From Solirubrobacterales bacterium 67-14 (lineage in GTDB: Bacteria > Actinomycetota > Thermoleophilia > Solirubrobacterales > 70-9), in NCBI GenBank assembly GCA_001897355.1, contig MKST01000011.1, positions 295,457 through 359,456 on the forward strand: a DNA stretch of 64,000 bases, given 5' to 3'. The notes below the pieces were generated by a model. That model was not told the origin of the DNA, ran no database searches, and saw only the letters and a list, made by a program, of their open reading frames with translations. Positions within the stretch are counted from its first letter, which is position 1; each line of letters opens with the position of its first letter. This document shows positions 5,001 through 51,557 of the stretch, piece after piece. Both the position numbers and the translations under genes were made by a program.

Positions 5001-6547
5001 GGGCTGGTCCGCCCCTTCGGTCGGTCGCCGTGCTTGCGCTTGTAGGCCCGCCAGGTGGTCGCCCACTGGTCGGGCTCGTCGAGCCTCGATCCATCGACCG
5101 GACCGATCGCCTGGTTGTGCGGTGCCGTCTTGACGATCTCGGGGTCCTCGTAGGCCTCGCGACAGACCTGGGCGAGGACGTCGATCCAGTAGTCGAGATC
5201 CTCGATCGGCCAGGTCTCGCCCGCCTCCGGGGTGATCGGCTCGGGCACCAGCCAGGGCTCGTGGCTCAGCCATGGTGCGTCGACCCCGAAATCGACCATC
5301 CGGTTCTGGACGTCGAAGACGGTCACGCCGGTGTCCTCCTGGAGCTTGCCGAGGCTGTACCTCGTCATCTCGAGCCGGCGGCTCTTGATGTCCGGGTGGC
5401 TGATGCTCAGGCCCGGGATCTCGAGCAGGCGCTTCTCCATGTAGTTGTTGGCCAGGACCGACATGTCGGAGGCGAAGCGGATGCCCTCGGCGCCCATCGA
5501 TCGCACCCAGGAGTAGGCCTTGACGATCTGGGGGACATTGCCCCAGTACTCGCGAACGCGCCCCACGCTCTTCGGCGCCTCGTCGACGTCCTCGAGCGAG
5601 TAGGAACCACCCTGCTCGCGGACCAGGGGCCGCGGCATGTAGGGCTCGAGCTCGGACGAGCATCCGTATGCGCCGACCGCCGGCCCACCGCCGCCGAACG
5701 GCGCAGCAAAGGTCTTGTGGAGCATGAACATGCAGGCGTCGAAGCCGAGTTCACGGGCTCGCAGCTTGCTCATCGCGCCGTTGAAGTTGGCGTGGTCGTA
5801 GAAGCAGAGCCCGCCGGCCTCGTGGACCAGGTCCACCCACTGCTTGATCTCGGGGTTGTAGATCCCCATGTCGTCCGGGTTGCCGATCATCATGCCCGCG
5901 GTCCGCTCCGAGACGGCCGCCTCGAGCGCCTCCAAGGGCGGGTAGCCGTCCTCGCCCAGCATCAGGGTGACCACCTTGAAGCCGGCCGCCGCGGCGGTCG
6001 CGGCGTTGCAGGGATGGGTCTGGATCGTGGTGATGATCTCGTTGCGCTGCTCGAGCTCGCCGCGGTCCGCGTGGTAGGCCCGGGTCGTGACCGCGTTGAC
6101 GTAGGCGGCATCGGCCCCGCCGCCGGCCTGGAACACGAACTGGTCCATGCCGGAGAGCTCGCAGAGGATCTCGCTCATGCCATGAAGCACCGCGAGCACG
6201 CCCTGGATGGTCTCGGGATCCTGCCCGGGATGGAGCTCCGCGATGTGATCGGCGGAGATCCGCTCACCCAGCAGCGGCGAGTACTTGATCGTGCAGGTGC
6301 CGAACAGGTTCACCCCCATCATGCCCAGGGTCTCCTGGGCCAGATGTATGTAGTGGCGCTGGACCTCGGCCTCCGACAGCTCCGGCAGGCCGGCCCGTTC
6401 CCCGCGCTTCATCGAATCGGGTACGAAGCCGGCCGTGTCGGCGTCACCGGCCGCCGGCGGGATGAACCCGCGGCGCCCCGGGCTGCCCATCTCCATCACC
6501 ACCGGCTCGTCCCAAACCGGCGCGTGATACCTGCGCAGGCCGCTCAC
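4997..6547 (-). CDS. gcvPB: Glycine dehydrogenase (decarboxylating) subunit 2, GcvPB-like
   Basis: C-terminal half of a split P-protein, 516 aa, a PLP enzyme that normally decarboxylates glycine and passes aminomethyl to lipoyl-GcvH. The PLP lysine motif LHKTFAAPFGGGGP is clear, as are GADAAYVNAV and the DHANFNGAMS block. The GTG start overlaps the gcvPA stop (GTGA), so the subunits are translationally coupled. No gcvT, gcvH or lipoamide dehydrogenase accompanies it; its neighbours are an aminotransferase and dehydrogenases. It could be the cell's glycine cleavage P-protein or a paralogue with another amino-acid substrate. Confidence 0.9.
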   Translation of the reverse strand: MSGLRRYHAPVWDEPVVMEMGSPGRRGFIPPAAGDADTAGFVPDSMKRGERAGLPELSEAEVQRHYIHLAQETLGMMGVNLFGTCTIKYSPLLGERISADHIAELHPGQDPETIQGVLAVLHGMSEILCELSGMDQFVFQAGGGADAAYVNAVTTRAYHADRGELEQRNEIITTIQTHPCNAATAAAAGFKVVTLMLGEDGYPPLEALEAAVSERTAGMMIGNPDDMGIYNPEIKQWVDLVHEAGGLCFYDHANFNGAMSKLRARELGFDACMFMLHKTFAAPFGGGGPAVGAYGCSSELEPYMPRPLVREQGGSYSLEDVDEAPKSVGRVREYWGNVPQIVKAYSWVRSMGAEGIRFASDMSVLANNYMEKRLLEIPGLSISHPDIKSRRLEMTRYSLGKLQEDTGVTVFDVQNRMVDFGVDAPWLSHEPWLVPEPITPEAGETWPIEDLDYWIDVLAQVCREAYEDPEIVKTAPHNQAIGPVDGSRLDEPDQWATTWRAYKRKHGDRPKGRTSP

Positions 6548-7944
6548 CGGACCGCCTCCGTCAGGGCTTCGCCGAGCAAGGCGATGTCCTCGTCCTGGTG
6601 GACCTCGGTCACGCAGATCAAGGCGCTCTGGCCCAGCTCGGGGAAACGGCCCGAGAGGTCGAGGCCGCCGAAGATGCCCTGCTCGCGGAGCGAGGCGTTG
6701 ATCTCGGCCACCGTCTTGCCGGTGCCGTTGAAGTCGGCCACGAATTCCTTGAAGAAGGCGTCGCCGAAGCGGACCTCGACGCCCGGGATGCGGGCGACGG
6801 TCTCGGCGGCCTGATGACTGCGACCGAGGATCGTCCGCCCGATCTCCTCGAAGCCGCGTGGGCCGAGCAGGGCCATGTAGACCGAAGCGGCTATCGCCCA
6901 GAGGTAGGTCGAGTTGCCGGTCCAGTCGTTGCCCAGCTCGCGTGAGCCGTAGGAGGTCTGTTCGAAGAGGGTCATCGAAAAGCCGATGTCCCCTTCGGCC
7001 GTGTGTGCCGCGGAGAGGCAGAGGGTCGGGTACTGGCGGGCGTAGCGCTCCTCGTCCCGGGAGGCGATGAAGCCGCTGGCGCCACCGCCGCAGTTCATGT
7101 GCACCCCGAGCGACTGGATCGTGCCGACCACGATGTCCGCGCCCCAGGCCGACGGCGAGGCGGTGACGCCGAGCGCGATCGGGTCGACGCCGACGATCAC
7201 CTCCGCCCCCGCTTCCTTGGCCAGGCGGGCGGCCTCCGGCCCGCTTGCCTCGAAGGTGCCGAGGAAAGACGGGTTCTCGAGGTAGATGGCGGCGGTCCGG
7301 TCGGAGAGCTTGGACCGGAAGTCCTCCAGGTCGAGGCAGCCGGTCTCCCAGTCGGTCGCGACTTCGACCAGCTCGATGTGGTGCTCGAGCTCGGGCAACC
7401 CGGCGTAGGTCTCGATCACCGCGCGGCGTTCCGGGTCGAGCGACGCGGCGACCAGCACCTCCGAGCGCCCGTTGATCCGCTGGGCCATCAGCATCGCGTG
7501 GCCGGCAGCGCAACCCCATGAGTAGACCGGCAGCCCGACGAAGTCGAGTTCGAGCAGTTCGCCGAGCTGGGAGCAGAACTCGAAGAGCGACTGGGTCCGC
7601 CCGAGATCCGAAGAGGGGGTGCCCCAGATGTTGTTGAGGAACTCGGCCCGGCCGACGATCTCGTCGACCACCGCCGGCACGTAGTGGGGCCAGCAGCCAC
7701 CGCCGAGGAAGCTTGCCTTCGGTTTCACGTCGCGGCTCAGCAGGTCGTCCATGTGGCGCGAGAGATCGGCTTCGGAGACCAGCGCCGGCGGCAGCTCCAG
7801 GCCACCCGCAAGTCGGTGCTCAGCCGGGATCTGCTCGAAGAGCTCCTCGACATCCGATGCCCCGACCACGTCCAGCATGTGCTCGACCGTGGCCTGGTTC
7901 GAGTTGGCCATCAGGTGATGGGGCTCGATCTTGCTCACGTCCAT
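6544..7944 (-). CDS. gcvPA: Glycine dehydrogenase (decarboxylating) subunit 1, GcvPA-like
   Basis: N-terminal half of the split P-protein, 466 aa, close to family length. It has the FLGGGCWPHYVPAVV region, where GcvPA proteins carry FLGAG..-H..P, and a fold-type I aminotransferase core (VGVDPIALG, GTIQSLGVHMNCGGG) without the PLP lysine, as expected for this subunit. The ATG has a GGAGAGGG ribosome site and GcvPB follows with a 4-base overlap. Together they form the alpha/beta P-protein. The gap to the upstream NAD-kinase-like gene is 13 bases. Confidence 0.9.
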   Translation of the reverse strand: MDVSKIEPHHLMANSNQATVEHMLDVVGASDVEELFEQIPAEHRLAGGLELPPALVSEADLSRHMDDLLSRDVKPKASFLGGGCWPHYVPAVVDEIVGRAEFLNNIWGTPSSDLGRTQSLFEFCSQLGELLELDFVGLPVYSWGCAAGHAMLMAQRINGRSEVLVAASLDPERRAVIETYAGLPELEHHIELVEVATDWETGCLDLEDFRSKLSDRTAAIYLENPSFLGTFEASGPEAARLAKEAGAEVIVGVDPIALGVTASPSAWGADIVVGTIQSLGVHMNCGGGASGFIASRDEERYARQYPTLCLSAAHTAEGDIGFSMTLFEQTSYGSRELGNDWTGNSTYLWAIAASVYMALLGPRGFEEIGRTILGRSHQAAETVARIPGVEVRFGDAFFKEFVADFNGTGKTVAEINASLREQGIFGGLDLSGRFPELGQSALICVTEVHQDEDIALLGEALTEAVR

Positions 7945-9089: not shown

Positions 9090-10490
9090 TCAGGCCCTGC
9101 CCAGTTCCTTCGCGACCTGGTCGGCCGAATCGCGGGCGACCGAGACCATCTGGTCGATCTCCGCCTCTTCGATCACGAAGGGCGGTGAGAAAGAGATCGT
9201 GTCGGCCTCCGGGAGGGCCCGCGAGATCACCCCCCGCTCCAGGCAGGCCTGGTTGATCCGCCGCCCGACCCCGAGCGCCGGGTCGAAGCGGACCGCCGGA
9301 TCCTTCTCGGCCACGAACTCGACCGCGGCGACCAGGCCCTTGCCGCGCACCTCGCCGACCAAGGGGTGGTCGGCGAAGGCTTCGCGCAGGTTGGAGCGCA
9401 GGCGTTCGCCCCGGACGGTGACCTGGGAGATCAGGTCCTCGTCTTCGACGATGTCGAGGTTGGCCATCGCCGCGGCGGCCGAAAGGGGGTGGGCACTGTA
9501 GGTGTATCCGTGGCCGAAGGCAAGGCCGCTGTCCGAGTGCTCGGCCAGCACGTCCCAGACCTTGCCGGTGACCAGGCAGGCGGAGAGCGGCACGTACCCG
9601 GAGGTGATCCCCTTCGCGACCGTGATCAGGTCGGGCTCCATTCCCATCACCGTCGACCCGAACCACTCGCCGAGACGGCCGAAGGCGGAGACCACCTCGT
9701 CGGCGATGAGCAGGACGTCGTGTCGGTCGAGTACCTCCTTGATGGCGGGGAAGTAGCCATCGGGAGGAATGATGACGCCCCCGGCCGCTTGGATCGGCTC
9801 GGCGATGAAAGCGGCGACGGTGTCCGGCCCCTCGTCCAGGATCAGCTGCTCGAGGTCAGCGGCGAGCCGGGCCGAGAAGTCGGCGTCGCTCTCCCCCGGC
9901 TTCGCTTCCCAGAGCCGCGATGGAGTCGTGGTGTGCCGGATGAACGGCAACGGCAGGTCGAAACCCTCGTGGAGGTTGCTGAGTCCGGTCAGCCCGGCCG
10001 TGGCGATGGTCACCCCGTGGTAGCCGCGACGGCGGGAGATGACCTTCTTCTTCTCCGGCCGCCCGAGGGCGTTGTTGTAGTACCAGACCAGTTTGATCTG
10101 GGTGTCGTTCGCGTCCGAGCCGCTGTTGCCGTAGAAGACCTTGGAGATCGGCACCGGGGCGAGCTCGGTCAGGCGCTCGGCCAGCCGGGCGGGGGTATCG
10201 GTCGCCATCGACGAGAAGGCGTGGTAATAGGGCAGCTTCAGGGTCTGGTCGTACAGCGCCTGCGCGATCCGCTCCCGCCCGTAGCCGACGTTGACGCACC
10301 AGAGCCCGGCCATGGCGTCCAGGTACTCGGTGCCGGCTTCGTCCCAGAGGGTCGAAGCCTTGCCGCGGACCATCATCCGCGGACCTGTTCGCTGATGCTC
10401 TCCGAGCACCGTGAAGGGGTGAAAGACGTGCTTCCGGTCGAGTTCGGAAGCCGCCGGCATGTCTGGGGGATTTGTTCGGCTTGCGTTCAT
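9090..10490 (-). CDS. Class III aminotransferase (omega-amino acid / putrescine-pyruvate type)
   Basis: PLP-dependent transaminase, 466 aa from the ATG at 10490. Motifs: [15 protein letters not shown] (cofactor phosphate), [25 protein letters not shown] and the lysine block [16 protein letters not shown]. Members act on beta-alanine, putrescine or GABA with pyruvate. Here it faces a succinate-semialdehyde-type dehydrogenase, which fits conversion of a terminal amine to an acid. A start 15 codons upstream (10535) is possible, but its leader would run through the operator at 10493-10507. The start at 10490 leaves the operator directly upstream, although no strong ribosome site is visible. Confidence 0.9.
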
Positions 10491-10492
10491 TT

Positions 10493-10507
10493 GCTCGTTA
10501 TGCGAAC
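10493..10507. promoter_or_regulatory. Operator-like palindrome GCTCG-N5-CGAAC between divergent genes
   Basis: Inverted repeat with one mismatch and a 5-base spacer (TTATG) in the divergent control region between the aminotransferase and the aldehyde dehydrogenase. It matches the core at 3201-3217 (TGTTCG TTACC CGAACA) and 13947-13961. A single site here could control both divergent units. Confidence 0.55.
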
Positions 10508-10553
10508 CTTTACATATTGACGGAGGTTTGTCCAATCGAAGGAGAAATGGCCG

Positions 10554-12023
10554 ATGGCAGCAACCGAAACCAGTCCCCTCGACAGCCGGCTCTGGCGCGA
10601 GGATCTGTTCATCGACGGCCGATGGGTCGAATCCGATTCGGGTGAACGGCTGACGGTCACCGACCCCGCGACCGGCGAGGAGATCGCCCGGGTCTCATCG
10701 GCCGGTGCGGCCGAGACCGAAGCCGCGATCGACGCCGCCGCGCGGGCGCTGCCGGCCTGGGCGGGGCTCACCGCCAAGCAGAGGGCCGGCATCATGCGGG
10801 ACTGGTTCGACCTGATCGTCGAGCACGCGGAGGAGTTGGCGGCGATCCTCGTCCTCGAGCAGGGCAAGCCGCTCGCCGAAGCGGTCGGGGAGATCCACTA
10901 CGGGGCAGGCTTCCTGGAGTGGTACGCCGAGGAGGGCAAGCGCGCCTACGGCGACGTGGTGCCGACCAACCAGGACGGGCGCCGGATCTTCGCGATCAAG
11001 CAGCCGGTCGGCGTCTGCGCCGCGATCACCCCCTGGAACTTCCCCTCGGCGATGATCATGCGCAAGGTCGCCCCCGCCCTCGGCGCCGGCTGCACCATCG
11101 TGGTCAAGCCGGCCGAGCAGACCCCCCTCTCTGCCACCGCCCTGGCCAAGCTGGCCGAGGAGGCCGGAGTCCCGGCCGGGGTGCTCAACGTGGTCACCGG
11201 TGACCCGGCCGCGATCGGCGGCGCCATCACCTCCGACGCCCGGGTGCGCCTGCTCAGCTTCACCGGGTCCACCCCGGTCGGCAAGCTGCTGATGTCACAG
11301 TGCGCCGAGACCGTCAAGCACGTCTCGCTGGAGCTCGGCGGCAACGCGCCGCTGATCGTCTTCGACGATGCCGACCTCGACGCCGCAGTCGAGGGGGCGA
11401 TGGCCTCCAAGTTCCGTAATGCCGGCCAGACCTGCGTCTGCGCCAACCGGCTGATCGTCCAGGACGGCGTCTACGACGAGTTCGTCGAGAAACTGGTCGC
11501 GGCAACGGAGGCACTCACCGTCGGCTCCGGATTCGAGGAAGGGGTCGACCAGGGCCCGCTGATCGACGACGCGGCGGTGGCCAAGGTCGAGTCCCACATC
11601 GCCGACGCGACCAGCCGCGGGGCCGAGGTCGCCACCGGCGGCACCCTCCACGAGAGAGGCGGAACCTGGTTCGCCCCGACCGTGCTGACCGGGGTCGGCC
11701 CGGAAATGCGGATCGCCTCGGAGGAGACCTTCGGGCCGGTCGCTCCCGTCTTCCGCTTCGACAGCGAGGAGGAGGCGCTCCGGATGGCCAACGCCACCGA
11801 ATCCGGCCTCGCCGCCTACTTCTTCTCGCGCGACGTCGGCCGCACCTGGCGCTTTGCCGAGCGACTCGAGTTCGGCGTGGTAGGAGTGAACACCGGAGTC
11901 ATCTCATACGAAGGGGCACCCTTCGGGGGTGTCAAGCAATCCGGCCTGGGAAGAGAGGGTTCGCGGTTCGGGCTCGACGACTTCCTGGAAATCAAGTACG
12001 TCTGTCTGGAGGGAATCGAATGA
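10554..12023 (+). CDS. gabD: NAD(P)-dependent succinate-semialdehyde dehydrogenase family protein
   Basis: Aldehyde dehydrogenase of 489 aa, oxidising a semialdehyde to the acid. The GabD-type signature is complete: [19 protein letters not shown], the general base in [16 protein letters not shown] and the catalytic Cys in [11 protein letters not shown]. The ATG has a GGAG site 9 bases upstream. Divergent from the class III aminotransferase and coupled by a 4-base overlap to an SDR. In context it likely takes the aldehyde produced by the transaminase. Succinate semialdehyde is the best family guess; other C4-C5 semialdehydes are possible. Confidence 0.88.
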
Positions 12024-44835: not shown

Positions 44836-45750
44836 ATGCGACGGCGCGGCGCGGCCTCCGCAACTGCGATTAGAATGGCCCGCGTCTTGCTGCCTCGATC
44901 CAGAAAACCAGTGTCTCTGTTCATCTCTCTGGCCGGCGTGCTGATCGCCTTCGCGCTGAACGCGACCCCGGCCATGGCGCTTTCGCTCAACCCGGACGCC
45001 GCTTCGCCCGGGATCGAGGACGCAAACACCCTGCACTGGATCCTCTTCGTCGTGATCTTGGCCGTGATCGTCGTGGTCAACCTGGCGATCCTCAAGGCCG
45101 CCCGGCCGCGGAGCCGGGCGGTCACCCCGAAGCCGGGCCGCAAGGTTTCGCAGGTCAAGCTGGCGATCGGCCTCGGCGTCTTCGCGCTCGCCCTTTTCGT
45201 GGTCGCCACCGTCTTCTCCGACAAGTCCCGCGAGATTCCGGCCGTAAACGCCGAACCGGTCGCCGGCCAGGTCAAGGGCGAGCCGCTCGAGATCACCGCC
45301 ACCGGCTCCCAGTGGCTGTGGCGCTTCAACTACCCGAACGGCGCCTTCAGCTACCGCCGCCTGACCGTTCCGGCCGGCGTGACCGTCCAGCTCGACCTCG
45401 TCTCGACCGACGTGGTCCACGGTTGGAACGTCCCCGAGCTGACCGGCAAGGCCCAGGCCATCCCCGGCAAGACCAACAAGGTCTACTTCCGCGCCGACGA
45501 TCCCGGCGTCTACACGAGCCGCTCCTCGGTTCTCTCCGGGCAGGGCTACGACACGATGGAAATCGAAGTCAACGTGGTCTCGCCGGAAGAGTACGAAGCG
45601 GCAATCGAAGAGCTGAAGACGGACATCCAGGACGCCCAGGACAAGGTCGAGGCCCAGTTCAAGGCCGAGCGGGACAAGTCGGAAGCGGCCGCTGACCAGG
45701 TCGGAAAAGCCGAAACCAACAACGACGCCGAAAGCGCTGAAGCCGAATGA
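44836..45750 (+). CDS. ctaC: Cytochrome c oxidase subunit II-like protein lacking CuA cysteines
   Basis: Protein of 304 aa with a signal/first membrane segment, a second TM helix (about residues 66-88), a third hydrophobic stretch (108-126) and a cupredoxin domain. QWLWRFNYPNG and STDVVHGWNVPE keep the fold and the first His (H195). Where CuA subunits have C.E.C...H..M, this one reads S230-S-V-L-S234-G-Q-G-Y238-D-T-M241. Both Cys and the second His are gone, as in quinol-oxidase CyoA/QoxA subunits. A charged helical tail follows residue 250. Overlaps ctaD by 4 bases. Confidence 0.85.
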   Translation: MRRRGAASATAIRMARVLLPRSRKPVSLFISLAGVLIAFALNATPAMALSLNPDAASPGIEDANTLHWILFVVILAVIVVVNLAILKAARPRSRAVTPKPGRKVSQVKLAIGLGVFALALFVVATVFSDKSREIPAVNAEPVAGQVKGEPLEITATGSQWLWRFNYPNGAFSYRRLTVPAGVTVQLDLVSTDVVHGWNVPELTGKAQAIPGKTNKVYFRADDPGVYTSRSSVLSGQGYDTMEIEVNVVSPEEYEAAIEELKTDIQDAQDKVEAQFKAERDKSEAAADQVGKAETNNDAESAEAE

Positions 45751-47450
45751 GCCGCACCACCAGCTACCCCCAGACGATGCCGCCGACCCGGCCTGAGATC
45801 TCCTCGGACGGCCCCGAGCCGGCCCGGACCCGCTGGGCGCAGCTCGCGACCAGCGCCGACCACAAGGACATCGGCCGGATCCTCGTCTCGGTCGCCTTCG
45901 GCTCGATCTTCCTGGCCGCCCTCGAGTTGCTGCTGATGCGGGCCCAGCTCGCCGTGCCGGAGAACGTCTTCCTCAAGGGCGTCACCTTCGACCGGCTGCT
46001 CTCGGTCTACGGCGAGACCGCGATCTTCCTGGTCGCCCTGCCGCTGATCATCGGCCTCCTCTACTACGTGGTCCCGCTCCAGATCGGCAGCCGCACCACC
46101 GCGATCCCGCGGGTCGGCCAGACCGGGCTCTGGCTGTTCATCTTCGGCGGCATCCTGCTTTACGGCTCCTTCCTCTTCACCCCGCCGGAAGCCGGCATCA
46201 ACCCGCTTCCCCCCTTCTCCGACGCCACCTTCAACCCCAACAACGGGGTCGACGTCTGGATCGGTTCGACCGGCCTGATCACGCTCGGGCTGCTGATGGT
46301 CGCGATCGACCTGCTGGCCACCCTGCATAACCTGCGCGCCCCGGGCATGGCCTGGCGGCGGGCTCCGCTGTTCACCTGGGCCGGCGCGATCGTCACCTGG
46401 CTCTTCGTGGTCATCGCGCCGATCTTCCTCGCCGCGATCAGCATGCTGATGATCGACCGCCTCTACGACGGCGGCTTCTTCGCCGGCGACGAAGGCGGCT
46501 CGCCGATCCTCTGGCAGCACCTCAGCTACATCTTCTTCACCGGCGTCTACATGTCGGTCGCGATCACCTTCCTCGCCGCGATCGGCGAGATCGTCCAGAC
46601 CTTCACCGGCCGGGAACTCCCCCGCAAGGCGGTCACCAGGTCCTTCGTCGCGATCGCGATCATCGGCACCCTGGCCTGGACCCAGAACATGCTGACCGTC
46701 CCGATCCCGAGTGGCTGGAAGTACTTCGGCATGCTGATGTCGCTGGCCCTGATCGTGCCCTTCGGCCTGATCTTCTACAACCTGATCAGCACCGTCAGCC
46801 AGAGCGATTTCCACATGCGGGCGCCGCTTCGCTTCGCGCTCGGTGCGCTCTCGTTGGCTTCGATCGGGCTCGCCGCCGAGATCGCCCAGTCGACCATCGC
46901 GGTCGCCACCCAGCTCTCCGAGACCTACGACGCCTGGGCCGCGACCCACTTCACGCTGATCGGCTTCGTCCTCTTCGGCGGCTTCGCGGCGGTCACCTAC
47001 TGGTACCCGAAGATGACCGGTCGCCAGCTCAACGAGGATCGCGCGGCCAAGTCGTTCGGCCTGATGTTCGTCGGCACGATCATCGCTCTCCTGCCGCTGT
47101 TCGCGGCCGGGGTCTCCGGGCAGGTCACCGACTCGTACCGGTACTTCAGCTTCGAGGATCTCGGGGTCTACAACCTGATCGCCGGGATCGGCACCCTGAT
47201 CCTCTTCGTCGGCATCGTGCTGGCGATCGGCAACCTGGTCGCCAGCCGCAGCGAGGAACCGGCCGCCACCCCGGACCCGTACCGAGGCGATTCACTCGAG
47301 TGGCTGGCCCTCTCCCCGCCCCCGGCCCATAACTTCGATGTCCTGCCGGACGTCCACAGCACCCGCCCGATGCGCGACATCCGGGAAGCGGTCATCCGCC
47401 GCGACGCCGAGACCGCGGCGGCCGAGGATGCTGCCCCCGTGTCTGCCTAG
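45747..47450 (+). CDS. ctaD: Heme-copper oxidase subunit I-like protein lacking most metal ligands
   Basis: Protein of 567 aa with about twelve TM helices and clear subunit I homology: TSADHKDIGRI, YYVVPLQIG, LRAPGMAWRRAPLFTW, ILWQHLSYIF, WYPKMTGRQL and the tail DSLEWLALSPPPAHNF. By manual alignment with mycobacterial CtaD, the six canonical metal-ligand positions are Y88 (low-spin heme), T265, Q313 and N314 (all CuB), A399 (heme a3) and H401 (low-spin heme, kept). The cross-linked Tyr position is Met269. No frameshift is visible and the chain is full length. An O2-reducing centre seems impossible as usually built. Confidence 0.88.
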   Translation: MSRTTSYPQTMPPTRPEISSDGPEPARTRWAQLATSADHKDIGRILVSVAFGSIFLAALELLLMRAQLAVPENVFLKGVTFDRLLSVYGETAIFLVALPLIIGLLYYVVPLQIGSRTTAIPRVGQTGLWLFIFGGILLYGSFLFTPPEAGINPLPPFSDATFNPNNGVDVWIGSTGLITLGLLMVAIDLLATLHNLRAPGMAWRRAPLFTWAGAIVTWLFVVIAPIFLAAISMLMIDRLYDGGFFAGDEGGSPILWQHLSYIFFTGVYMSVAITFLAAIGEIVQTFTGRELPRKAVTRSFVAIAIIGTLAWTQNMLTVPIPSGWKYFGMLMSLALIVPFGLIFYNLISTVSQSDFHMRAPLRFALGALSLASIGLAAEIAQSTIAVATQLSETYDAWAATHFTLIGFVLFGGFAAVTYWYPKMTGRQLNEDRAAKSFGLMFVGTIIALLPLFAAGVSGQVTDSYRYFSFEDLGVYNLIAGIGTLILFVGIVLAIGNLVASRSEEPAATPDPYRGDSLEWLALSPPPAHNFDVLPDVHSTRPMRDIREAVIRRDAETAAAEDAAPVSA

Positions 47451-47479: not shown

Positions 47480-48424
47480 ATGAACTCTGGTGCCGACGCG
47501 CGCTCCGTGCGCCCTCGGCAGGCCGCTCAGCCCGCGCAGACCGGCCTGCAGCTTGACGTGATCCCGCTGGTGCGGGATTACATCTCGCTGACCAAACCGC
47601 GGATCATCAGCCTGCTGCTGCTGACCACGGTCGCGACGATGTTCGTCGCCGACCCCTCCGGCCCGGCACTGTCGACCATCCTCTGGACCATGCTCGGCGG
47701 TTACCTGGCCGCCGGCGGCGCCGGAGCGATCAACCACTACATCGACCGCAACCGGGACGCGCAGAACAACCGCACCAAAGGCCGCCCCCTGGCCGACGGA
47801 CGGGTCAAGCCGCTCCACGGGCTGATCTTCGGGATCACCCTCGGGGTCGTCGCCTTCTTCCAGCTCTGGCTGACCGTCAACCTGCTGGCCGCCGGCCTGG
47901 CCATGGTCGGCCTTTTCGGCTACGTCTTCCTCTACACCCTCTGGCTGAAGCCGCTCACCCCGCAGAACATCGTGATCGGCGGCAGCGCCGGCGCGGTCCC
48001 GCCCCTGGTCGGCTGGGCCGCCGCCTCGGGCAGCCTCAGCTGGGACGCGATGTGGCCGTTCCTGATCATCTTCTTCTGGACCCCGCCCCACTTCTGGGCG
48101 CTCTCGCTGATGATCAAGGACGACTACGCCAAGACCGGCGTGCCGATGCTGCCGGTCGTCAAGGGCGAAGAGGCGACCCGCCAGGCGATCCTCATCTACA
48201 CGATCTTCATGGTCGGCTTCACGGTCGGGCCCTACTGCACCGGCCTGCTCGGCCCGCTCTACCTCGCCGCTTCGATCGTGCTCGGCGTCGTCTACATCGG
48301 CTTCTCCTTCGCCCTCTGGCGCAAGCCCAGCCCCAAGCTCACCCTCCAGGCGTACCTGTATTCCCTCGCCTACCTGGCCCTGCTCTTCATCAGCATGGCC
48401 GTGGCGGCTGTCGCCGCGGCCTGA
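47480..48424 (+). CDS. ctaB: Protoheme IX farnesyltransferase (heme O synthase)
   Basis: UbiA-family prenyltransferase, 314 aa, about nine TM helices. First Asp-rich motif NHYIDRNRDAQNNRTKGRPL and second motif region KDDYAKTGVPMLPVV, with FFWTPPHFWALS, all normal for CtaB. Converts heme B to heme O. 29 bases after ctaD and probably cotranscribed. Intact, in contrast to the subunit genes. Confidence 0.93.
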   Translation: MNSGADARSVRPRQAAQPAQTGLQLDVIPLVRDYISLTKPRIISLLLLTTVATMFVADPSGPALSTILWTMLGGYLAAGGAGAINHYIDRNRDAQNNRTKGRPLADGRVKPLHGLIFGITLGVVAFFQLWLTVNLLAAGLAMVGLFGYVFLYTLWLKPLTPQNIVIGGSAGAVPPLVGWAAASGSLSWDAMWPFLIIFFWTPPHFWALSLMIKDDYAKTGVPMLPVVKGEEATRQAILIYTIFMVGFTVGPYCTGLLGPLYLAASIVLGVVYIGFSFALWRKPSPKLTLQAYLYSLAYLALLFISMAVAAVAAA

Positions 48425-49245: not shown

Positions 49246-49638
49246 CTACTGGCTGGAGGTGGCTCCGTCGGAGGTCCAGACTCGCATGATGTCGCGCATG
49301 CTCAGGACTCCGATCAACTCGCCTTCCCGGTAGACGGTCAGGTGGCGGATGCCGCGCTTGGACATTTCGGTGGCGGCGCGCTCGAGGCTCCACTCGGGGG
49401 AGGCGGTGATCACCTTTTCGCTCATGTGGTCGGCGACCTTTTCCTGGTCGGGGTCGAGGCCTTCGCCGATTGCCCGCAGTACGTCACGCTCGGTCAGGAT
49501 CTGGGGTCCGGGCCATTCCTCGTGTTCGACGATCGCCGCGCCGACCGACCGGCTGGCCATTTTCTGCGCGGCTTCGCGCAGAGTGTGGTCCGGTCCCACA
49601 CGAAGTACGACTTCCGACATCCCGACACTGACGCGCAT
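49246..49638 (-). CDS. Tandem CBS-domain protein
   Basis: Protein of 130 aa made only of two CBS motifs: VRVGPDHTLREAAQKMASRSVGAAIV with LTERDVLRAI, then VITASPEWSLERAATEMSKRGIRHLTV with VLSMRDIMRVW. Such stand-alone Bateman modules bind adenosyl ligands and regulate partner proteins or sense energy state. It is inserted on the opposite strand within the oxidase locus. Confidence 0.87.
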   Translation of the reverse strand: MRVSVGMSEVVLRVGPDHTLREAAQKMASRSVGAAIVEHEEWPGPQILTERDVLRAIGEGLDPDQEKVADHMSEKVITASPEWSLERAATEMSKRGIRHLTVYREGELIGVLSMRDIMRVWTSDGATSSQ

Positions 49639-49870: not shown

Positions 49871-50587
49871 ATGAAGATGAACAAGTTCTCGACCAAGCTG
49901 CCCGTCCTCCTCGCCGCCGTTGCCGTGCTCGGTGCGGTAGTCGCCGGATGCGGTACCACCTCTTCGAATTCCGACCCGCAGAAGCTCGGATTCCAGGATC
50001 GCGGTCGACAACTCTTCAACGCCCACTGCGGCACCTGCCACGTCTTGGCCCAGGCGGCCAGCACCGGCACCCAGGGGCCGAACCTCGACGACGCCTTCGC
50101 CGCCGCCCGTGCCGCCGGCATGGACAGCGACACGATCAAGGGCATCGTCCGGGCCCAGGTCCACCGTCCCCAGAAGGTCAACGGCGACTACCCCGGCGTG
50201 ACCATGCCGGCCGGCCTGCTCGAGGGCAACGACCTCGAGGACGTCGCGCAGTACGTCGCCCAGGTGGCCGGCGTGCCAGGCATCCAGCCCCCCACTGCCC
50301 CGGGCGAGGGCGCGGGCGCCCAGATCTTCGCCAACAACGGCTGTGGAAGCTGCCACACCCTGGCCAGCGCCCAGGCAGCCGGAACCCTCGGCCCCAACCT
50401 GGATGAGGTCATTCCGGGCATGACCAAGGCCGAGATCCACGAAGCGATCGTGGATCCGGGTGCGAAGGTCGAGGCGGGCTACCCGAACGCGATGCCGGCC
50501 AATTACGCATCACAGATCAGCGAACAGCAGCTGAACCAGTTGATCAAGTTCCTCATGACGTCAGCTGCGGCTGATGGCAAGGGCTGA
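49871..50587 (+). CDS. Diheme cytochrome c lipoprotein
   Basis: Protein of 238 aa with a lipobox (VVAGC, Cys27) and two class I cytochrome c domains. Heme 1: CGTCH (residues 53-57), likely Met ligand near M112 (VTMPAGLL). Heme 2: CGSCH (158-162), likely Met M208 (NAMPANYA). Membrane-anchored electron carrier that would normally feed a cytochrome oxidase. The start may be the ATG at 49871 or at 49877. Its stop region overlaps ctaA by 14 bases. Confidence 0.9.
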   Translation: MKMNKFSTKLPVLLAAVAVLGAVVAGCGTTSSNSDPQKLGFQDRGRQLFNAHCGTCHVLAQAASTGTQGPNLDDAFAAARAAGMDSDTIKGIVRAQVHRPQKVNGDYPGVTMPAGLLEGNDLEDVAQYVAQVAGVPGIQPPTAPGEGAGAQIFANNGCGSCHTLASAQAAGTLGPNLDEVIPGMTKAEIHEAIVDPGAKVEAGYPNAMPANYASQISEQQLNQLIKFLMTSAAADGKG

Positions 50588-51557
50588 TTCCGGCCTCCTG
50601 AGCCGGGTCCGTAATTTCTCCATCTCGCCGGAGCGTTATCAGGCCGTCACCCTGATCGCGCTTGCCGCGCTGGTCACGATCGTCTTCACCGGCGCCGCCG
50701 TGCGCTTGACCGCCTCGGGGCTCGGTTGCCCCGACTGGCCCAAGTGTTACGACCAGTACGTCGCCCCGGCCCAGATCAACGCCTGGATCGAGTACGGCAA
50801 CCGCCTGGTCACCGGCGTCGTCTCGATCGCGGTGATCGCCGCCGCCCTGCTCGCCTTCTTCCGGCGGCCCTACCGCTGGCACCTCGCCTTTTTCGGGATC
50901 CTGCTGCCACTGGGTGTGATCGGACAGGCCGTGCTCGGCGCCTACGTCGTCTACAAGCACCTGCCGCCGGAGCTGGTCATCTTCCACTTCATCCTCTCGA
51001 TGATCCTGATCGATGCCGCCTTCGCGCTCTTCTGGTGCTCGCGCTTTGAACCGGGTGACCGGCGCTACTCGACCGACTGGGTCAGCACCTGGGCGGTGCG
51101 GGCGCTGATCCCCTTCGGGCAGCTGACGGTCCTGCTGGGCACGATCACCACGGGCTCGGGCCCCCACCCCGGCGACCACGACAAGGAGCTGGTCCACCGT
51201 TTCGACTTCAAGGGCCACGACACCCTGGAGTGGATCGTCCAGCGCCATGCGGCCGCTGCCGTACTCTTCGCGGTCGCGGCCCTGGTCGTGATCTTCATCG
51301 TGCGCCGCCGCGGCGGGGACAGCCGCCCGCTCAAGCCGCTGGTCGTCACCTTCGGGCTGATCTGCCTGCAGATCGCGATCGGCGTCACCCAGTGGCTGCT
51401 CCACCTGCCCGCCGCCATGGTCTGGGTCCATGTCGTGATCGCCACCCTGCTCTGGCTCGCCGTCCTCTGGTCGGTCGCCACGGCAGGACAGATCACCCCG
51501 GGCACCAAGGGAGCCCTGCGGCGAAAGCCGGATCCCGCGGTCCCCGCCTCAGGCTGA
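50574..51557 (+). CDS. ctaA: Heme A synthase (CtaA/COX15)
   Basis: Membrane protein of 327 aa, eight TM helices. It has the extracellular Cys pair in LGCPDWPKCYDQ and the E..[H]R site as WIEYGNRLVTG, where Asn replaces the first heme His of Bacillus CtaA. Later His residues lie in VIFHFILSM, VQRHAAAAV and VWVHVVIATLLW. Converts heme O to heme A. Overlaps the cytochrome c gene, so they are coexpressed. Confidence 0.87.
   Translation: MARADSGLLSRVRNFSISPERYQAVTLIALAALVTIVFTGAAVRLTASGLGCPDWPKCYDQYVAPAQINAWIEYGNRLVTGVVSIAVIAAALLAFFRRPYRWHLAFFGILLPLGVIGQAVLGAYVVYKHLPPELVIFHFILSMILIDAAFALFWCSRFEPGDRRYSTDWVSTWAVRALIPFGQLTVLLGTITTGSGPHPGDHDKELVHRFDFKGHDTLEWIVQRHAAAAVLFAVAALVVIFIVRRRGGDSRPLKPLVVTFGLICLQIAIGVTQWLLHLPAAMVWVHVVIATLLWLAVLWSVATAGQITPGTKGALRRKPDPAVPASG

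Follow-up and report, generated by a model that had tools for sequence, protein, structure and literature searches.

Two adjacent genes in a 64,000-nucleotide stretch of the genome of Solirubrobacterales bacterium 67-14 (contig MKST01000011.1, positions 295,457 to 359,456 of the forward strand; the whole stretch is called ‘the window’ below) encode homologues of cytochrome oxidase subunits II and I, here termed pseudo-ctaC and pseudo-ctaD, that have been stripped of their redox machinery: subunit I has lost every redox and pumping residue tested except H401, and subunit II four of the six CuA contacts. On sequence grounds the two are classed as a pseudoenzyme pair within a known fold family, not as an oxidase. 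The pair very likely does not reduce O2, and we infer that it would be unable to bind CuA, CuB or heme a3 or to pump protons. Tentatively, and with a little less than even confidence, the pair (44836-47450) is read as serving the active oxidase of the same cell, either as a metal-free scaffold or as a partner in its assembly. The features concerned are as follows.

44836..45750, + strand: pseudo-ctaC, subunit II homologue with a COX2 domain, just upstream of pseudo-ctaD (Pfam match, alignment and model)
45747..47450, + strand: pseudo-ctaD, heme-copper oxidase subunit I homologue, 567 aa, ATG start and terminal stop (COX1 profile match)
46008..46010, + strand: codon of Y88, in the column of a low-spin heme ligand His
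46539..46541, + strand: codon of T265, in the column of a CuB ligand His
46683..46688, + strand: codons of Q313 and N314, in the columns of the CuB ligand His pair
46941..46949, + strand: codons A399 to H401; A399 occupies the heme a3 ligand column and H401 is the kept low-spin heme ligand

Pseudo-ctaD belongs to the heme-copper oxidase superfamily by descent and by fold: the Pfam COX1 profile matched it at 252.5 bits (cut-off 34.8) over profile positions 2–436 of 436, solved aa3 oxidases matched it at up to 244 bits in HMMER searches, and its predicted structure has twelve long helices. Six histidines define heme-copper oxidases. In HMMER alignments to two solved aa3 oxidases the corresponding columns of pseudo-ctaD read Y88, T265, Q313, N314, A399 and H401, so that the six-His set of a heme-copper oxygen reductase is replaced by Y, T, Q, N, A and H; metals are assigned to the columns by analogy with known members of the family. 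The frame, its coordinates and all six residues had been given correctly in an earlier, sequence-only reading of this DNA. Between aa3 oxidases and pseudo-ctaD, MHG becomes VYG, FFGHPEVY becomes FFTGVYM, WAHHM becomes WTQNM and AHFHY becomes ATHFT. There is no gap inside any of these motifs and no His shifted to a neighbouring column within them, so displaced but equivalent histidines can be rejected.

The replacements were conserved. A protein search with subunit I recovered 2596 homologues, and the best 120 of these, together with the window protein, make up the 121 close rows referred to throughout. Identity to the window protein ranged from 58 to 97%, and by record name most of the named relatives fell in Solirubrobacterales or Thermoleophilia of the phylum Actinomycetota, other labels being confined to single records. 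No close row held more than one of the six His: exactly one was present in 118 and none in three. Q313 and N314 were invariant (121/121), while column 88 was Tyr in 118 rows and a gap in three, column 265 Thr in 101, Ala in 13 and Ser in seven, column 399 Ala in 114, Ser in six and Gly in one, and column 401 His in 118 and Gln in three. Recurrence of the same replacements across these rows and in separate assemblies rules out sequencing error; at loci read from separate assemblies (63 of 80 fetched, more loci having matched than were kept), subunit I was metal-free in 15/63 and canonical or partial in 48/63. Ratios of nonsynonymous to synonymous substitution rates (dN/dS) for subunit I were 0.143, 0.151 and 0.198 against three close kin and 0.318 against a fourth, more distant one; for comparison, the same three kin gave 0.06 for trxB and 0.09–0.11 for ctaB. 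These values point to purifying selection on pseudo-ctaD, not decay. Low dN/dS (0.14–0.20) together with invariant replacements marks a protein conserved under selection without its catalytic residues, as a pseudoenzyme is.

Losses in subunit I extended beyond the ligands. For this comparison 26 metal-free rows of the window's family, chosen by N at position 314, were set against 49 canonical rows, after removal of identical copies (L020, L024, L029 and two from L035) and of the short L136_15750. The active-site Tyr column (269) was Tyr in 49/49 canonical and 0/26 metal-free rows. Of the proton channel residues, D-channel Asp 117 and K-channel Lys 342 were each kept in 0/26 and D-channel Asn 124 in 3/26, so that metal-free subunit I lacks both the Tyr that is cross-linked to a CuB His in oxygen reductases and the D- and K-channel set of an A-type proton-pumping oxidase. 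The propionate Arg pair (461, 462) was likewise kept in 0/26, the window protein having T461 and D462. Two canonical-invariant glycines, whose counterparts in bovine structures face heme a3, were also replaced: G375 by Leu in 25 rows and Ile in one (Leu in 121/121 close rows), and G378 by Glu in 24, Asp in one and Lys in one (Glu in 121/121 close rows). Because these positions now carry Leu and mostly Glu, the heme a3 pocket is probably filled. In 10/26 family rows (L031, L106–L111, L133, L134 and L136) not one of the six His remained, with ligand strings such as FTQNDF, ATQNSL, GTQNEA and FTRNAI; a role common to the family therefore cannot need heme at the old sites.

What remains of subunit I looks structural. 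Of 128 columns invariant in canonical subunit I (≥97% of the 49 rows), 57 were kept (≥80%) in the 26 metal-free rows, and the C-terminal tail is over-represented among them: 12/13 such columns were kept at positions 504–541 against 45/115 elsewhere (Fisher p = 2.5e-4, with the boundary set after the list had been seen). An AlphaFold2 model of pseudo-ctaD, built from a 58-row alignment in which five rows were canonical, reached a mean predicted local distance difference test score (pLDDT) of 81.8 and a predicted template modelling score (pTM) of 0.85, and superposed on aa3 and caa3 chains with a template modelling (TM) score of 0.88. The roughly twelve transmembrane helices and the conserved C-terminal tail claimed in the sequence-only reading are matched by twelve long helices in the model and by the retained tail columns, and in the comparison with an aa3 oxidase that it had proposed the predicted fold is kept.

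Loss of metal ligands was shared by the partner subunit. In pseudo-ctaC the CuA loop reads SSVLSGQGYDTM, compared with CAELCGIGHTTM in the canonical subunit II of the same genome, and only H195 and M241 of the metal-binding side chains are retained. Among the best 120 of 756 subunit II homologues, which include the window protein, each CuA cysteine was kept in 0/120, the second His in 0/120 (118 Tyr, 1 Phe, 1 Thr) and the Glu that makes a backbone contact in 0/120, while the first His was kept in 119/120 and the Met in 120/120. Judged from these alignments, pseudo-ctaC does not carry the CuA ligand set of a cytochrome c oxidase subunit II. Both CuA cysteines were gone in 22/22 subunit II rows of the window's family, and subunit I was metal-free at every locus of origin. 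The pseudo-ctaC model (43 rows, pLDDT 74.8, pTM 0.57) was weaker than that of subunit I, but a beta domain was visible and its top Foldseek matches were cytochrome oxidase subunits II (TM score about 0.5). Beyond this domain a helix is predicted at residues 250–303, in which Q265, A267, Q268 and D269 are nearly invariant (43 rows); it is a possible partner-binding element. The sequence-only reading had mentioned neither the CuA loss nor the channel and propionate losses, nor relatives devoid of all six His.

The window's genome is not short of canonical oxidase genes. It gave four PF00115 matches, including pseudo-ctaD, which disposes of the idea that no other oxidase is present and accords with the canonical ctaD that the sequence-only reading had suggested looking for. 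One lies on the same contig as the pair, about 24 kb away, in a canonical coxII-coxI operon with COX3; another is an orphan canonical coxI on a different contig (L008 6918-8855), beside which no subunit II gene was seen, neither of the genome's two PF00116 matches being on that contig. On a third contig a more distant subunit I stands beside a small protein with the loop CLEYCGLGHHMM (read by eye and missed by the PF00116 search). Genes for a bc complex were recognised by eye as Rieske protein, cytochrome b and subunit IV with a cytochrome c motif. As no COX3 lies beside them, membership of the pair in a supercomplex of the actinobacterial QcrCAB-CtaE type is not supported, and a search for Alternative complex III gave no NrfD match. 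Across metal-free loci, represented by stretches of varied length, a canonical coxI started 4.7–9.5 kb from the metal-free subunit I in 9/28.

The surroundings of the pair are those of an ordinary oxidase operon. The neighbouring features are:

47480..48424, + strand: ctaB/cyoE-like heme O synthase (UbiA family), the strongest of three UbiA matches in the genome
48681..48965, + strand: small protein of 94 aa, recurring at many loci of the window's family
49246..49638, − strand: CBS-domain-like protein (by eye) of 130 aa, found beside canonical loci too
49871..50587, + strand: diheme cytochrome c downstream of the pair, with both CxxCH motifs and, by eye, a lipoprotein-like N-terminus
50574..51557, + strand: COX15/CtaA-like protein with N76 (EYGNRL) at the first His column and the other three His columns kept

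Gene order at the locus is trxB, flippase-like, PAP2-like, ctaC, ctaD, ctaB, CBS-like (the flippase-, PAP2- and CBS-like genes being named by eye). The full order was found around a canonical pair at, for example, L030, L032 and L033, and without the CBS-like gene at L125 and L137; in short stretches ctaB alone was seen. Operon-1 subunit I of the sister families had all six His intact in 9/9 cases read (six from f3 and three from f2; loci L112–L115, L125 and L137–L140), the f2 genes coming from three genomes. At sister loci ctaB came next in seven of the seven searched (L112, L113, L125, L137–L140), and trxB with the flippase-like gene lay upstream at L112, L125, L137 and L138. Since sister families hold a canonical pair at the same locus, pseudo-ctaC-ctaD looks like the in-place orthologue and descendant of a normal ctaC-ctaD operon. 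In a sample of 199 genomes of the class, the metal-free gene was found in 14/15 of the window's family (f1).

A second metal-free lineage was found in another family of the order. In family f4 this locus was again occupied by a metal-free subunit I in 3/3 sampled genomes, with one or two His kept:

L120 5438-7162: subunit I, ligand string SHVVSL
L129 about 6697: subunit I, ligand string SHQVAH
L130 about 7212: subunit I, ligand string SHQVSL

The subunit II loop, read in one of the three genomes (L120), lacked the CuA cysteines. N314 was present in all non-canonical rows except the three of f4, and this lineage may be independent of f1. Trees made by a quick method, with groups named after the trees had been seen, gave conflicting answers. 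In the subunit I tree (49 of 78 rows, six ligand columns removed) the two metal-free lineages joined, with a support of 100 in the Shimodaira–Hasegawa-like approximate likelihood ratio test (SH-aLRT), and f1 with f3 to the exclusion of f4 gave p = 0.0018 in the approximately unbiased (AU) test. In the tree of four neighbouring genes (30 of 43 rows), by contrast, f1 grouped with the canonical f3 (SH-aLRT 100) and f1 with f4 gave AU p = 0.037. In both trees f4 sat on a very long branch (1.68 and 1.11), and long-branch attraction is therefore possible; a single origin, two origins and transfer would all be compatible with the trees. It is possible, though rather doubtful, that a whole oxidase core (I and II) lost its redox metals and became a membrane machine free of cofactors, with a new function, throughout one family, and that another family of the order underwent the same conversion separately. 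One locus with the full gene order, L030, comes from a metagenome-assembled genome whose record is titled Bifidobacterium breve; its cox locus is Solirubrobacterales-like and clusters with loci of that kind in the neighbour-gene tree, and the record is probably mislabelled.

How might such a pair be useful to the cell? The suggestion, made from the sequence alone, of a pseudo-oxidase with another role is upheld by orthologues with the same substitutions in the close rows (a check it had itself proposed), by purifying selection, by the aa3-like predicted fold and by the canonical ctaD genes elsewhere. Among the roles it had listed, that of a structural partner seems to fit best; a new cofactor arrangement probably does not apply to the whole family, given that even H401 and Y88 are gone from 10/26 family rows. 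As a scaffold, subunits I and II would still assemble together in the membrane, and ancestral surfaces kept by them, above all the subunit I C-terminal tail (presumably cytoplasmic), would hold or help to build a caa3-type oxidase; its donors, the diheme cytochrome c and the Qcr complex, might be held in the same way. Within the sequence, such a role is hinted at chiefly by the over-conserved tail, and the operon neighbourhood is weakly consistent with it, being common to canonical families.

Several observations weigh against this proposal. Conservation of the tail could reflect a need for folding only, and its segment 523–534 has pLDDT <50 in the AlphaFold2 model. Subunit II, with dN/dS of 0.18–0.29 against the three close kin and 0.42 against the fourth, evolves faster than subunit I. 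No COX3 lies beside pseudo-ctaC-ctaD, the genome's sole COX3 match being that of the canonical operon, and the two operons are about 24 kb apart in the window's genome; adjacency to a second cox operon occurs in canonical families too, so adjacency alone shows no link to an active oxidase. At L028 (about 9983-11609) and L132 (about 5886-7492) subunit I runs over two frames near the N-terminus, although these splits may be assembly errors. The fifteenth f1 genome (G029) had one 277-bit match only, of which the ligands were not read, and ctaB was not found there in a search run without a control; the locus may have been lost or left unassembled.

Those two split loci are also what speaks for a decaying gene or an assembly artefact, to which hardly any credence can be given in view of dN/dS of 0.14–0.20, invariant replacements in the close rows and recurrence across separate assemblies. 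A cofactor-free membrane carrier or channel is unlikely; in it the emptied cavity, with polar residues newly fixed along its wall (Q313, N314, E378, D395, T400 and D462), would move protons or another small solute or bind a quinone. In or near former active-site columns, E378 is newly fixed in 24/26 and D462 in 25/26 family rows, and E378 and T400 in 121/121 and D395 in 119/121 close rows; N314 occurs in 26/26 family rows, but these were chosen by N314. The D- and K-channel columns (D117, N124, K342) are lost, however, the new residues may merely refill the hole left by heme, and G375→L and G378→E, at positions facing heme a3, suggest filling rather than opening.

That the pair is a biogenesis factor, passing heme O or A or copper to the active oxidase or holding subunits during insertion, must also be counted unlikely: ctaB is the next gene, and a canonical-type ctaA lies between ctaD and ctaB in deeper metal-free members (L106, L110, L111, L133, L134 and L136), but the ctaC-ctaD-ctaB order is common to canonical loci, as is ctaA in that position (L125, L137–L139), and the family as a whole retains no ligand to metal or heme. 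A narrower idea concerns the window's own subclade, in which Y88 and H401 are kept together (115/121 close rows, with three Y/Q and three gapped at 88) and might serve as axial ligands of a single heme, the protein then acting as a redox sensor or as an electron relay with one heme. Arg is also kept at position 65, the column that contacts the formyl group of the low-spin heme, in 116/121 close rows. This is improbable: deeper members that keep the protein have lost both Y88 and H401, both propionate-motif Arg are gone (T461, D462), and the rows that share the Y/H pair fall into a single clade of the tree, which one event might explain.

Relative to known systems, pseudo-ctaD is homologous over its whole length to A-type aa3/caa3 CtaD (Corynebacterium glutamicum 7q21 chain D, 244 bits), with which it shares the predicted fold (TM score 0.88), the C-terminal tail motif and the ctaC-ctaD-ctaB operon; it differs in lacking five of six ligand His, the active-site Tyr, the D/K-channel residues and the propionate Arg pair. 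Pseudo-ctaC, having no CuA ligand set, resembles subunit II of quinol oxidases (CyoA/QoxA type), which is not known to carry CuA, and solved relatives of this type were among its matches. Quinol oxidases generally retain all six His in subunit I, whereas the window's subunit I has lost five. No metal-free counterpart of a heme-copper oxidase was found in searches of an open-access library (most subscription papers being outside its coverage), and no case there of a pseudoenzyme helping an active relative within the superfamily. A parallel is offered by pseudoenzymes that aid an active relative, such as inactive metallopeptidase homologues (PMC11266112): metal-binding residues are lost, fold and conservation are kept, and the active relative is present in the cell. 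In at least one published heme-copper oxidase classifier (PMC3084760) six conserved His are an entry criterion and sequences without them are discarded before analysis, so a lineage such as metal-free subunit I would be filtered out. Homologues among the best 120 carry source names such as ‘cytochrome c oxidase subunit 1’ and ‘cbb3-type cytochrome c oxidase subunit I’, and pipelines that take pseudo-ctaD for an oxidase would arrive at too high a number of terminal oxidases for these bacteria. A conserved I/II pair free of ligands would mean that selection can maintain the oxidase scaffold for work other than electron transfer; what the non-redox surfaces of complex IV contribute would then become testable in bacteria that have them apart from catalysis.

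Two neighbours of the pair deserve comment. The 94-aa protein had no Pfam match and is, by eye, possibly a subunit IV-like membrane piece. For the CtaA-like gene, the idea that two heme ligands had been lost proved wrong, a larger alignment showing that only the first His column is changed: among the best 120 of 4413 relatives the EYxHR His is Asn in 120/120 and the other three His are kept in 120/120. Another CtaA, with the EYxHR His intact, is encoded on contig C1 (L010).

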